Below are positions 41,332 through 64,000 of a stretch of 64,000 bases of DNA, piece after piece. Source of the stretch: Micromonospora yasonensis (GTDB taxonomy: Bacteria > Actinomycetota > Actinomycetes > Mycobacteriales > Micromonosporaceae); assembly GCF_026013475.1 (NCBI RefSeq), contig NZ_JAPDPH010000008.1:1-64000 (forward strand). Reading direction: 5' to 3'. The position numbers and the translations under genes were made by a program. The notes under the pieces were generated by a model. It saw only the letters and a program-made list of their open reading frames with translations, was not told the origin of the DNA and made no database searches. The number at the start of each line of letters is the position of its first letter. Position 1 is the first letter of the stretch.

Positions 41332-41473
41332 GAGAGTCCTTCCGCGAGGCGATCCTGACGGCCGCGCAGTCGAGGCGGACGGACCTCGGCTGCCGCAGCT
41401 GGGCAAAGTGTGATCGCCGTCTCATCAGTCAGTCAAGATCGATGGGCGCGGAACGGAGCACGTGACCGGTTGA

Positions 41474-41713
41474 TCAAGGGGCCGGCTGGTCCGCGTACAC
41501 CGGGTTCTTCCGGCCGGCGCGCTCGGGGCACCTGCCGGTGGGGCCGCCCACCATGCCGATCCGGCCGTCGTCGCACACGATCAGGTAGCCCTTGCCGCCC
41601 CAGAAGCCGTCCACACAGGTGAAGTAGCCGCACACGCCGGGGGCCGGCTCATGGACGAGTCGTCTCGCCCACCGGGCCCGCCAGCCCGGACCGGTCCCGG
41701 CCGGGGCATGCCG
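41474..41713 (-). pseudogene. Fragment of the six-cysteine membrane-protein family
   Basis: The frame ends at 41474-41476 and encodes PAPGVCGYFTCVDGFWGGKGY, LIVCDDGRIGMVGGPTGRCP and a final RKNPVYADQPAP. This closely matches the C-terminal halves of the proteins at 60195 and 61936 (PAPDVCDWFACV..., GKGYLVQC). Upstream of it, GWRARW recalls those proteins' N-terminal GWRARWVG, but everything between, including the membrane helix, is missing. There is no start codon between the preceding in-frame stop (about 41714) and the domain. It is therefore a deleted remnant, third of its kind in the window. Confidence 0.65.
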
Positions 41714-60194: not shown

Positions 60195-61478
60195 TCAGAC
60201 GTAGAGCGGGCGGCGGGTGCCGTCGTGGTCGGCGCACGGCCCGCCCTGCATTCCGGTCCGGCTGAGCAGGCCGTCCTCGCACTGGACCAGGTAGCCCTTG
60301 CCGTCCCACAGGTTCGAGACGCAGGCGAACCAGTCGCAGACGTCCGGGGCGGGGTCGTAGATGTAGGAGCCGCCGCAGTAGGTGTAGCCGTACGGGTTGG
60401 GTGGCGCGCCGCAGCGGTCCGTCGCCGGGGGACTCGACGAGGTGGACAGGGTCGGCGAGGGGCTGGCGGTCGCCCCGGGCGACGAGGAGGGTGGGGCTGG
60501 AGGCTGGTCGGCGGTCGAGGCCGGGGTCCCGGTGGTGGGCGCGGTGGTCGCGGGCCGTCCACCCGATGTCTGGCCGGGTGCGGTGCGGGTGGGGTGGGGC
60601 GCGGTGGAGTTGGCCGGTGCGCCGAGGCCGGTGGACGGGGGCGGGAGCGCCGGGTCGATCGGCGCGACGCTGCGATCCACGTTCATCCCGACCACGGGAC
60701 GGTCCGGCACGGATCCGTGGAACACGCTCGCGACCCCGGCGAGCGCGAGGGCGACCGCGACGGCGGTGATCAGCGCCGGCCGGACGAGCCGGGCGGTCAG
60801 CGGGGCGTCGGCGGGGGTGGCCGGCACCGGGATCGGCGGGCGGTCGTGCCAGTGCGCGACGATCTCGTCGTCGAGCCGGTCCAGCAGCGCCGGGTACGTT
60901 CCGGTCGCCCGGGCGTACGCCAGGGTGAGCCGGAGCCGGAACGCCGACACCTCGGCCCGGGGCACCCGGACTCCCCGGATCCGGCCCGGGCCCTGCGGGT
61001 GGAGCAGGGTGACCGGCTCGCCGGGATGGTGGGCCACCCCGCCCAACCGGTCGTACGGCCATTCCTGGTGCTCGTGGCGTCCCACGAGGATCAGCCGCCG
61101 GTCGGTGACCACCGCCGTGCCGGCGTCGACCACGCTGATGCCGTTCGGCTGCCGGCGTGACCGCCGGGTGTCCTCGACGGGCACGACGGTCAGCTCCACG
61201 GTGGGCAGATCGGCGGTGTGCCGTGCCGTCACCTCGACCAGTTCCGCCGCGGGCTGCACGGCCAGCACGACCTCGTCGTCGTCGAGGTCCACGGGCAGTC
61301 CCGCCGCCGTTTCCGCCGGCGGGACGGGCTCTTCGGCCTCGCAGTAGAGCCGGCGCAGTTCCTCGTCGCGCCGGCGCCACGCCTGCAGCGCGACGTCGTA
61401 CGCCGTGCGTCGCCGCTCGTTCTCCCGCCCGACCCACCGGGCCCGCCAGCCGAGGGTGTCACCGTCCGTCGCCGTCAC
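60195..61478 (-). CDS. Membrane protein with extracellular six-cysteine domain (copy A)
   Basis: A 427-residue protein. The cytosolic N-terminal part (residues 1-210) starts GWRARWVGRENERRR and contains a beta-rich domain (VVTDRRLILVGRHEHQEWPY, PH-like). One membrane helix follows (ALITAVAVALALAGVASVF), then a long Pro/Thr/Ser linker (about 90 residues) and a C-terminal domain with six cysteines (RCGAPPNPYGYTYCGG, VCDWFACV, YLVQCEDG, GPCADHDG). Copy B at 61936 has the same order. I chose GTG 61478 (GAGGCGG before it), since ATG 61496 would overlap the start of the divergent VOC gene. Confidence 0.82.
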   Translation of the reverse strand: MTATDGDTLGWRARWVGRENERRRTAYDVALQAWRRRDEELRRLYCEAEEPVPPAETAAGLPVDLDDDEVVLAVQPAAELVEVTARHTADLPTVELTVVPVEDTRRSRRQPNGISVVDAGTAVVTDRRLILVGRHEHQEWPYDRLGGVAHHPGEPVTLLHPQGPGRIRGVRVPRAEVSAFRLRLTLAYARATGTYPALLDRLDDEIVAHWHDRPPIPVPATPADAPLTARLVRPALITAVAVALALAGVASVFHGSVPDRPVVGMNVDRSVAPIDPALPPPSTGLGAPANSTAPHPTRTAPGQTSGGRPATTAPTTGTPASTADQPPAPPSSSPGATASPSPTLSTSSSPPATDRCGAPPNPYGYTYCGGSYIYDPAPDVCDWFACVSNLWDGKGYLVQCEDGLLSRTGMQGGPCADHDGTRRPLYV

Positions 61479-61494
61479 CGGGCCGCCTCGCATC

Positions 61495-61932
61495 ATGAAG
61501 GGCTTCCGCGTCCACCCGGTACAACCCGGCGTGTCCGGGAAGGACACGATCCGCATCGACGGGTTTCGGCTCGTTCCGGCTGGCCGATCGGTGGAGGCGA
61601 CGTCGAACCACGCGTTCCCGGGCGGCCTGGCGCTGGTGCTGTGGGGCAGGGACAAGCTCGCCGACGACGCCGGCCTGGCCGACCGGGGTGAGGACGGTTT
61701 CGGCGGGGTGGGCCTGGCGCAGAACGTACGCAGCCGCGAGCAGGTCGACGAGATTCTGGGCCGGGCGGCCGAGGCCGGGGCGACGGTCACCCGGCCGGCC
61801 CGGGACACCTTCTACGGCGGGTACGCGGGCTGCTTCACCGACCCGGACGGGCACCTGTGGGAGATCGCCTGGAACCCGGGCTTCCCGCTGGCCGAGGACG
61901 GCACGCTGACCGTCCCCGACTTCACCGCCTGA
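61495..61932 (+). pseudogene. VOC/glyoxalase protein with atypical or lost N-terminal half
   Basis: 145 residues from ATG 61495. The C-terminal half is a normal VOC unit (LALVLWGRDKLADDAGLADR, NVRSREQVDEILGRAAEAG, YGGYAGCFTDPDGHLWEIAW). The N-terminal half (MKGFRVHPVQPGVSGKDTIR and so on) lacks the usual VADLxRSRAFY-type first unit and looks like read-through from foreign sequence. It is wedged between the two six-cysteine genes and shares its 5' end with the promoter of copy A. It is probably non-functional, though a divergent functional protein is possible. Confidence 0.5.
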
Positions 61933-61935
61933 GCG

Positions 61936-63105
61936 TCAGGTCCACACCGTACGGCGGAAGCCCCGGTTGTCGGCGCAGGCGTCCCGCTGCCCGCCGGTCA
62001 GGCTGACCGTGCCGTCCCGGCACTGCACCAGCCAGCCGCGGCCGGACCAGAACCCGGGTACGCAGTCGAACCAGTCGCAGACGCCCCGGGCCGGTGTGCG
62101 GATGCGGGAGCCGCCGCAGAAGTCGTACCCGAAGGGGTTGACCGGGGCGCCGCAGCGCCGCTCGGCGCCCGGAGGCGGCGCGGCGTCGCGCGACGGCGAG
62201 GCCGTCGGCGTGGTCCGGCTGCGGTGCGGCTTGGGCGCGGTGGTCTGGTCGACCCGAACCACCGGGCCGAGCTGCGGGGCCCCGGGCGTGGTGGTCGCCC
62301 CCGGCGTGGCGGCGGAGGCGACCTCCGAGCCGGGCCGCACCGGCGGGTCGGACTCGAAGAGCATCGCCGGCACGACCAGCGCGAGGACCACACCGGCGAG
62401 GACGGTCCGCCGGCCGCCCGGGACCAGCGCCGACAGGTGGGCCTGGGCCGGGGTGATGATCGCCGGGCGGACCGGACGGACCGCGTCGTGTTCCTCGATC
62501 AGCTCGTCGAGCTGGGCGACGACCGCCGCCCGCTGTTCGATCGCGTCGGCGAAGGCCAGGGTCAGCCTGAACCGGAAGTCGGCGACCGCGCCGGTGGGCA
62601 GCAGCAGCCCGGAGGTACGCCGCCGGTCCAGGACCTGGATCAGCGTCACCGGCGCGCCCGGGTCGTGGGACAGCCCGGTCATCCTCCCGTACGCCCAGTC
62701 GCGGCGGCCGCGCCCGCCGAGCAGGACCAGCCGGCGGTTGGTGAGCACGGCCAGCCCGGCGTCGGTCACCCGGACGCCGTCGGGGCGGCGCGGGCGCACC
62801 ACCGGCGGTTCGGGGTCGACGAGCAGTTCGGGGGCGGGCAGCACGGCGGTGTGCCGCACCTCGACCAGTTGCGCGGCGGGCAGGGTCCAGAAGACCACCT
62901 CGCCGGGGGACAGCTCCATCGGTAGGCCGAGGCCCGCGTCGGTGGAGCCGTGGAAGGACTCGGCGAGCGTACGCAGCCGGCGCAGTTCCTCGTCGCGTCG
63001 TCGCCACGCCTCGTCGGCGGCGTGGAACGACCGCTGCCGCCGCTCGTTCTGCCGGTGCGCCCACCGGTAACGCCATGTGGAACCCGTCGAATCAGTCTTC
63101 GCCAC
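61936..63105 (-). CDS. Membrane protein with extracellular six-cysteine domain (copy B)
   Basis: A 389-residue paralogue of copy A with the same order: a cytosolic part beginning TWRYRWAHRQNERRQ and RRRDEELRRLRTL, a beta-rich domain with LAVLTNRRLVLLGGRGRRDW, one helix (VLAGVVLALVVPAMLF), a Pro/Thr linker, and the six-Cys domain (RCGAPVNPFGYDFCGG, VCDWFDCV, WLVQCRDG, DACADNRG). All six cysteines are conserved in place. The GTG at 63105 has GGCGGAGGAG upstream. Function unknown: a cytosolic PH-like domain plus an extracellular disulfide domain suggests a sensor or adhesive surface protein. Confidence 0.82.
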   Translation of the reverse strand: MAKTDSTGSTWRYRWAHRQNERRQRSFHAADEAWRRRDEELRRLRTLAESFHGSTDAGLGLPMELSPGEVVFWTLPAAQLVEVRHTAVLPAPELLVDPEPPVVRPRRPDGVRVTDAGLAVLTNRRLVLLGGRGRRDWAYGRMTGLSHDPGAPVTLIQVLDRRRTSGLLLPTGAVADFRFRLTLAFADAIEQRAAVVAQLDELIEEHDAVRPVRPAIITPAQAHLSALVPGGRRTVLAGVVLALVVPAMLFESDPPVRPGSEVASAATPGATTTPGAPQLGPVVRVDQTTAPKPHRSRTTPTASPSRDAAPPPGAERRCGAPVNPFGYDFCGGSRIRTPARGVCDWFDCVPGFWSGRGWLVQCRDGTVSLTGGQRDACADNRGFRRTVWT

Positions 63106-63381: not shown

Positions 63382-64000
63382 GTGGGCGGGACGGCCGTCG
63401 TGGTGGGCGTGGACATCGGCACCACCAGCACCAAGGCGGTCGCGTACGACACCGGCGGCCGGCAACTCGCCGTCCACTCGATCGGCTACCCCCTCGACGA
63501 GCCGCACCCCGGATACGCCGAGCAGGACCCGAAACTGATCTTCGACGCGGTGGTGGGAACCATCCGCGCGGTGGTGGAACAGCTCCCGGACCCGGTCGCC
63601 GGGCTGTCCTTCAGCACCGCCATGCACAGCCTGATCGGGCTGGACGCCGGCGGCAATCCGCTCACCCCGTCGGTCACCTGGGCCGACTCCCGGGCCAGCG
63701 CCCAGGCCGAACGGCTGCGCGCCGCGCCGTCCGGGCTCGCCCTGCACCGGCGCACCGGCACCCCGGTCCACCCGATGGCCCCGCTGGCCAAGCTGGTCTG
63801 GTACGCCGAACAGGAACCCAAGCTGCACGAACGGGTCGCGCACTGGGTGAGCATCAAGGACTACGTGCTGCTGCGGCTGGCCGAAGCCCTGGTCACCGAC
63901 CACTCGGTCGCCTCGGCCACCGGCCTGATGAACATCCACCACCTCGCCTGGGACGGCGAGGCGCTGGCCATCGCCGGCATCACCGAGGAGCAGTTGCCGC
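63382..64000 (+). CDS. FGGY carbohydrate kinase (gluconokinase-like), runs off window
   Basis: The first 206 residues are visible: GVDIGTTSTKAVAYD is the phosphate-1/ATP-binding start, followed by GYAEQDPKLIFDAVVGTI, SFSTAMHSLIGLDAGG and TWADSRASAQAERL. The last two motifs fit gluconokinases of the FGGY family (GntK-type), which convert gluconate to 6-phosphogluconate. The GTG at 63382 follows GAGGAGGTG and is in frame with VVVGVDIG. The C-terminal half is beyond the window. It is divergent from six-cysteine copy B. Confidence 0.88.
   Translation, partial: MGGTAVVVGVDIGTTSTKAVAYDTGGRQLAVHSIGYPLDEPHPGYAEQDPKLIFDAVVGTIRAVVEQLPDPVAGLSFSTAMHSLIGLDAGGNPLTPSVTWADSRASAQAERLRAAPSGLALHRRTGTPVHPMAPLAKLVWYAEQEPKLHERVAHWVSIKDYVLLRLAEALVTDHSVASATGLMNIHHLAWDGEALAIAGITEEQLP

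Follow-up and report, generated by a model that had tools for sequence, protein, structure and literature searches.

Two paralogous Micromonospora proteins with a predicted cytosolic PH/GRAM-like domain and a probably extracytoplasmic six-cysteine domain with a DUF3761-like core

Near the end of a 64,000-nucleotide stretch of Micromonospora yasonensis DNA (contig NZ_JAPDPH010000008.1, positions 1 to 64,000, forward strand; hereafter the window), two genes, named here A and B, encode proteins that join a domain predicted inside the cell to a small cysteine-rich domain predicted outside it. An earlier reading of the letters alone (the sequence-only reading) had described them as tandem paralogues with a cytosolic PH-like domain and an extracellular domain containing six cysteines (six-Cys domain). 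Our analysis favoured A and B as single-pass membrane proteins with the N-terminus inside and the C-terminus outside (N-in/C-out), working as a tether or receptor that links the cell surface to the cytosol and not as an enzyme, and we hold this explanation with middling confidence. Homology, domain order, the predicted PH fold, topology signals and conservation are supported by computation. The two genes and their parts were placed as follows.

60195..61496, minus strand: gene A, whole coding sequence with stop, 433 amino acids (aa); stop at 60195, start ATG at 61496
60777..61496, minus strand: A cytosolic region (basic N-terminal helix and PH-like domain), residues 1-240, from alignment and profile matches, with the fold inferred from the B model
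60720..60776, minus strand: A predicted transmembrane (TM) helix, residues 241-259, from hydropathy
60414..60719, minus strand: A linker, rich in Pro/Thr/Ser/Ala, 102 aa
60198..60413, minus strand: A six-Cys domain, residues 362-433, from sequence alignment
61936..63105, minus strand: gene B, whole coding sequence with stop, 389 aa; stop at 61936, start GTG at 63105
62959..63090, minus strand: B basic N-terminal helix, long, residues 6-49, from the model, the cytosolic alignment and charge
62542..62895, minus strand: B predicted PH-like domain, residues 71-188 (seven strands and capping helix), from AlphaFold2, Foldseek and VIA-align
62350..62406, minus strand: B predicted TM helix, residues 234-252, from hydropathy; the model has a helix at 233-249 at low predicted local distance difference test (pLDDT) values
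62155..62349, minus strand: B linker, rich in Pro/Thr/Ser/Ala, 65 aa
61939..62154, minus strand: B six-Cys domain, residues 318-389, with columns 38-68 as a DUF3761-like core, from alignment, model and hhalign

For gene A, alternative starts at ATG 61493 or GTG 61478 are possible. The two proteins aligned over nearly their whole length, stopping just short of both ends (BLASTP, 175/426 identities or 41%, E 2e-80), with 43% identity in the cytosolic region and 57% in the six-Cys domain. This end-to-end match agreed with the common layout proposed for them, i.e., basic helix, PH-like domain, TM helix, linker and six-Cys domain, and the pattern VCDWFxCVxxxWxGxG...VQCxDG was found in A and B alike; the sequence-only observation was thereby confirmed in its main points, positions included. 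The motif TNRRLVLLG was present in B, whereas A reads TDRRLILVG. The one helix noted behind the beta domain corresponded to the TM segment, and the model added two more helices after the beta domain. Among family members, the linker before the six-Cys domain measured from 42 to 129 aa. The description as tandem paralogues holds; a glyoxalase-family gene on the plus strand lies in between, and A and B belong to separate, well supported old clades.

The cytosolic part was analyzed with an alignment of 39 members, picked from 65 loci plus A and B, and with an AlphaFold2 model of the B region (260 residues) built with the family sequences. The mean pLDDT of this model was 80.6, with 147 of the 260 residues at 90 or above and values below 50 at the TM end. 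It showed a helix at residues 6-49, seven strands within 71-168, and helices at 171-188 and 192-208; the predicted model therefore has the seven strands and the C-terminal capping helix (171-188) that define a PH/GRAM domain. The N-terminal helix of B carries a net charge of +5, and its W11, W15 and W34 were invariant in the alignment. Comparison with VIA-align placed Lam6 first (Z 10.8, 102 residues, 2.2 Å), followed by Vps36 (10.6, 107 residues, 2.7 Å), the EAP45 GLUE domain (10.2, 105 residues, 2.6 Å) and the MTMR2 PH-GRAM domain (10.1, 105 residues, 2.8 Å), and these four were tied, all lying within one Z unit. With Foldseek, 456 matches were obtained up to E 10, and the top 50 were mostly PH, PTB, FERM, GLUE, EVH1 and Ran-binding domains.

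At the level of sequence profiles, a local likeness to bPH_3 was detected over 30 columns round the T-[ND]-R-R strand (probability 70, score 35.4 versus at most 16.9 in 100 shuffles), and the comparison with bPH_2 gave nothing above the shuffles. No Pfam PH family was matched at E 1 by the 39 members; the Pfam NHL match of three of them (E 0.014) was set aside as chance, as were the 'Pizza' proteins (E 0.17 and above), and the PDB contained no meaningful sequence match to the region. NCBIfam had no match for A, B or a paralogous type, D, described below. B would share with the bacterial PH domains (PHb: PF08000, bPH_2 and bPH_3) and with eukaryotic GRAM/GLUE domains a predicted seven-stranded fold with a capping helix. 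The N-terminal basic helix, the TM helix, the linker and the six-Cys domain are not known to be part of the PHb or GRAM/GLUE families. A membrane-surfing amphipathic N-terminal helix was also considered for B and was unsupported, the hydrophobic moment being at most 0.48 and the mean hydrophobicity -0.68 to -0.89 in seven 18-residue windows.

The cytosolic module also occurred in other proteins. Its profile matched 13 of 345 genomes in the class sample: three of the same genus, eight of one small-genome family, plus G472 and G546. The small-genome proteins consist of a helix and a PH-type domain, with no signal or TM segment visible by eye, and so appear to be soluble; in two loci, L157 and L158, a stop falls inside the match. 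The alignment of five PH-type proteins (small-genome proteins and L156) with the A/B family covered 206 columns at E 2e-22. In the actinobacterial helix plus PH-type proteins L159 and L133, the whole cytosolic region was alike over these 206 columns, and the six-Cys domain was missing. In the protein L156 of G472 (positions 1-1839), Big_13 immunoglobulin-like (Ig-like) repeats (E 1.4e-14) are followed by a TM helix, a coiled coil and, at the C-terminus, a PH-type domain; this protein differs from A and B in that it has no six-Cys domain and carries Ig-like repeats on the N-terminal side of the TM helix instead. L156 thus has the same inner module as A and B, with the parts in the opposite order.

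The orientation in the membrane was assessed from charge and from relatives of each part. Among 64 members with a scored TM helix, 60 were richer in Lys and Arg in the 15 residues on its N-terminal side than on its C-terminal side, two were equal and two were reversed (L047 and L081). This bias, together with the relatives of the PH-like part that lack a TM segment, suggested that the PH-like part lies inside, and the cytosolic PH-like domain of the earlier description is supported to the extent that its fold is predicted by AlphaFold2, Foldseek and VIA-align and its inner side rests on those homologues without visible signal or TM. Six of the 79 loci retained for the six-Cys domain have it without a PH part (L038, L077, L100, L104, L107 and L109), and so do L026 and L027. 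By eye and hydropathy, the domain follows a lipobox-like cysteine in L077, L100 and L104, a signal-like peptide in L027 and TM helices in L026, L038, L107 and L109. Since these eight relatives have it behind lipobox-like, signal-like or TM segments, the six-Cys domain is probably extracytoplasmic, which, with the N-in/C-out Lys/Arg bias, agrees with the outer location first proposed. Three further loci without a PH match end at a contig border (L071, L078 and L087), and in L089 the PH and six-Cys parts are in different frames.

The six-Cys domain was studied in 48 sequences, namely A, B and 46 chosen from the 79 loci. These loci were found via the pattern CGAPxNPxGY, and conservation at the eight fixed positions of the pattern, among them the first cysteine, therefore reflects this selection. 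All six cysteines were present in 48/48 aligned domains, with exactly six in 47, and 19 columns were invariant (the six cysteines and 13 more), eight of them within the search motif. The same spacing of the six cysteines was observed in 26/26 loci obtained from protein or profile searches without that pattern. Of five AlphaFold2 models of the domain, the best reached a pLDDT of 95.3, and the other four 93.7, 90.0, 71.4 and 56.7. Against the PDB, there was no sequence match, the fold search gave one match at E 9.5, and nothing was found at Z 2.

A relationship to DUF3761 (PF12587) first appeared as weak matches in the six-Cys profile search. PF12587 was matched by 32 of the 48 members at E values up to 10, the best being 8.9e-6; B was not among them, and neither A nor B gave a match at E 1. 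The family cut-off of 29 bits was not reached by the four relatives that scored 24.1, 22.7, 22.4 and 16.9 bits, in which the matched stretch lies round the fifth and sixth cysteines. When the two profiles were compared with hhalign, columns 38-68 of 72 (31 columns) aligned with a probability of 95.5, E 1.5e-8 and a score of 43.2, while 200 column shuffles that kept the cysteines reached at most 22.3 and the reversed profile 9.4. The aligned segment is the C-terminal core, which is homologous in the two families and contains two cysteines, DG and a Ser. Foldseek against the BFVD viral models ranked DUF3761 entries first and third, with 28 columns at 1.3 and 0.9 Å and weak E values of 1.7 and 2.4. 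Judged by these profiles, the C-terminal part of the six-Cys domain is a DUF3761 core. Both families share the core C-x-D-G-x2-S...G-x-C-x2-H-x-G and its position at the C-terminus, after a start of signal- or lipobox-like type followed by a Pro/Thr linker; they differ in that the core is here preceded, on its N-terminal side, by some 40 residues that contain four cysteines, CxxxxC among them, and that hhalign left unaligned. This four-cysteine part may be an addition or the diverged N-terminal half of DUF3761, the latter because one or two cysteines precede the core in 5/10 DUF3761 rows. The His of the CxxH after the last cysteine was invariant in the ten DUF3761 rows; A reads CADH, and B reads CADN, with Asn. 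The sequence-only reading had also held that a match to a well-known domain of settled function would undo it; the match found is to DUF3761, a Pfam family of unknown function, and so does not undo it.

In the order, 10 of 101 genomes had a PF12587 match above the family cut-off; the 10 same-genus genomes listed had none. Most of the ten proteins were lipoprotein-like by eye, with DUF3761 at the protein end. Putative secreted proteins ending in DUF3761 were seen in L154 (442-1605, minus strand), L152 and L155; L154 has a GmrSD_C nuclease domain before DUF3761 according to Pfam, and L152 appears similar by eye. Phages, too, have DUF3761 proteins, and an excerpt of one report describes such a protein, with a signal sequence, between the endolysin and holin of a phage lysis cassette (PMC11131426). 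DUF3761 is otherwise scarcely mentioned in the open-licence literature, where we found nothing on PF12587 and nothing that pairs a PH/GRAM-like domain with an extracellular cysteine domain or a TM helix in Micromonospora or actinobacteria.

Both domains were widespread in the genus. A scan of named genomes with the six-Cys alignment gave 120 relatives, from which the 79 loci were kept, 70 of them titled Micromonospora. In a family sample of 250 genomes, the six-Cys domain was found in 71 and the cytosolic domain in 69, and the same 63 same-genus genomes were listed for both. Because both lists run from close to distant kin and the first unmatched genome belongs to another genus, we infer that 63/63 same-genus genomes have both; by the same inference, the six-Cys domain occurs in eight of 187 genomes of other genera of the family, and the cytosolic domain in six of those eight. 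In each of the 63, one match reached the strength of B (E 1.2e-115 or better). Among 150 genomes of the order, the six-Cys domain was detected in 17, two of them from other families, and the cytosolic domain in 16 at E 1e-8, one from another family. The phylum sample (396 genomes) gave five six-Cys matches: the own genome, a congener, two DUF3761 proteins and L112. As to mobile elements, a viral origin of the six-Cys domain was set aside, no relative having been found in viral contigs with the B domain as query, a search that reaches close relatives only; a plasmid origin was likewise set aside (no plasmid match at E 0.01). A 22-residue piece of Streptomyces phage ZL12 resembled the domain (E 0.1), and PHROGs gave nothing better than E 0.032. 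PADLOC returned just PD-T4-6 over the TM helix and linker of A (E 0.018), which we took as chance.

The history of the paralogues was read from a midpoint-rooted tree of cytosolic regions containing 102 of 114 rows, 12 incomplete rows having been dropped. Gene A is there the row L010_m1844, labelled 'none' as its locus ends before the six-Cys domain, and was read as six-Cys. The clades comprised 66 rows for B, five for A, three for a C type that is sister of A, five for the L013/L037 type and 20 for the D type. The B clade united B with 65 other B-type rows (100/100); the A clade contained the orthologues L031, L032, L034 and L035 (100/99) and joined the C type (100/98). A recent duplication of A from B was thus rejected, as the two fall in separate, well supported clades of several species. 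A was found in few species, so both loss and transfer of A are possible. In most cases A lies next to B. The order B, glyoxalase gene, and A or an A-like gene is kept in L031, L032, L035 and L039; A and B have the same order and strand in G139; and in L034 A is present and the flank covered does not contain B. Besides A and B, the genome of the window carries a D-type gene on another contig, which makes three PH-type genes in all. D-type proteins (examples are L002, 828-2051, L048, L057, L058, L085, L136 and L137) combine the PH-like part with a hydrophobic stretch and a linker, and the six-Cys domain is in frame in none of the 20 rows; 13 of them end in the two-cysteine tail CLDPLxLPLLDPLLC (11 by pattern, 2 close).

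Collectively, the homology, domain order, predicted fold, topology signals and conservation, together with the literature on bacterial PH domains and DUF3761, led us to favour the tether or receptor. On the inside, the basic helix and the PH/GRAM-like domain would serve as a platform for binding a cytosolic partner or for self-association; the TM helix and the flexible Pro/Thr/Ser/Ala linker would carry the six-Cys domain outwards; and there the DUF3761-type core with its four-cysteine N-terminal part could bind the envelope or an external ligand. We infer only tentatively that the six cysteines may pair as disulfides, as had been suggested at first, and that the protein may sense or signal. 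An accessory rather than catalytic role for the outer domain is suggested because DUF3761 ends lipoprotein-like proteins, once behind the GmrSD_C nuclease domain. Excerpts of the literature state that the solved bacterial PH domains form rings and are expected to bind protein rather than lipid, that oligomerisation has been suggested for them and that several families occur inside membrane proteins (PMC2817789); in Enterococcus, PH-domain proteins are described, in an excerpt of another report, as involved in bacteriocin transport (PMC8657885).

Several observations weigh against this explanation. The pLDDT of the cytosolic model was just 59-72 across residues 81-110, none of the 456 Foldseek matches had an E value below 0.001, and SsgB, which we did not count as PH-like, took five of the top 50 rows. 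The charge of the PH-like region was inconsistent among the 39 members (mean +0.6, range -8 to +6), so no lipid-binding surface is evident, and the hydropathy of the B TM helix was moderate (2.07). Because D-type paralogues lack the six-Cys domain, the inner part can do without it. A and B have no known ligand, partner or phenotype, and there is no evident functional partner among the neighbour genes of the family in the 79 loci.

A wider proposal, which we put forward only tentatively, is that one cytosolic module serves a class of actinobacterial inside-outside proteins, receptors or tethers, through one TM helix with exchangeable outer parts, the DUF3761-type domains being the ligand-binding part. 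The exchangeable parts would be the six-Cys domain (A, B and C types), the CLDPLxLPLLDPLLC tail (D type) and the Ig-like repeats on the other side (L156). We think it unlikely, if still worth weighing, that the PH-like part merely anchors and oligomerises and that the outer domain is a passive decoration or spacer cap, with no signal across the membrane. The ring formation of bacterial PH domains and the oligomerisation suggested for them in membrane proteins, as excerpted above (PMC2817789), would fit such an anchor, as would the persistence of D-type paralogues without a six-Cys domain; however, a passive cap sits poorly with the conservation of that domain (19 invariant columns over the 48 sequences, eight in the search motif) while the linker varies from 42 to 129 aa.

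The six-Cys domain could also be a carbohydrate-binding module, e.g., like the six-cysteine chitin-binding CBM14, that holds chitin, wall or host glycan, and this we regard as improbable. It is a small domain with six cysteines and conserved aromatics that follows a linker, the position at which binding modules are usually found, and its cysteine spacing presumably resembles that of CBM14. One of the 48 members did match CBM_14 (PF01607), yet a single match at E 0.047 among 48 is at chance level, and neither the sequence nor the fold search of the PDB brought up a CBM14 chain, an absence that does not exclude CBM14. Finally, a selfish or defence-related surface protein, e.g., a phage-adsorption decoy or contact-dependent factor, is very improbable: DUF3761 occurs in phages, once between endolysin and holin according to the excerpt cited (PMC11131426), and the loci show copy gain, copy loss and a relic, but all 63 same-genus genomes have a match of B strength, frequently beside the same FGGY gene, and neither PADLOC (nothing beyond E 0.018), the plasmids (at E 0.01) nor the viral contigs (close relatives of the B domain) gave support.

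With the tether or receptor as the favoured explanation, a protein present in all 63 listed same-genus genomes joins an inner PH-like to an outer cysteine-rich domain, neither of which is above the Pfam cut-off in A or B. A and B extend DUF3761, a function-unknown family of phages and secreted proteins, and both DUF3761 and the bacterial PH domains gain a membrane context in which their roles become testable.

Other features of the window that touch this family are a relic and two neighbours.

41455..41709, minus strand: relic of a third paralogue, C type, seen by comparison with the uninterrupted L030 gene (473 aa frame in G139)
61495..61932, plus strand: glyoxalase-family gene between A and B, matching Pfam PF00903 over profile positions 66-121 only
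63382..63999: FGGY-type sugar kinase, divergent from B

In the C-type relic, deletions have joined the start and first residues directly to position 17 of the six-Cys domain, so that four of its cysteines remain. The losses amount to some 57 bases close to the start and a stretch of roughly 1.1 kilobases that reaches from the N-terminal helix into the six-Cys domain; the flanks are about 91% identical. In Micromonospora solifontis (L033, 1790-3216), an A-type six-Cys match without the A cytosolic part was observed 44 bases after B, and this remnant is probably another deletion relic.

Five relatives (L031, L032, L035, L039 and L061) have an N-terminal part that the glyoxalase-family gene between A and B lacks; given the missing part, this gene is probably not functional. 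An FGGY match was found on the upstream side of B in 36 of the 79 loci, with a 37th in L107, which has no B, and glyoxalase, APH-type and membrane-protein neighbours were each detected in 19 to 21 of the 79.

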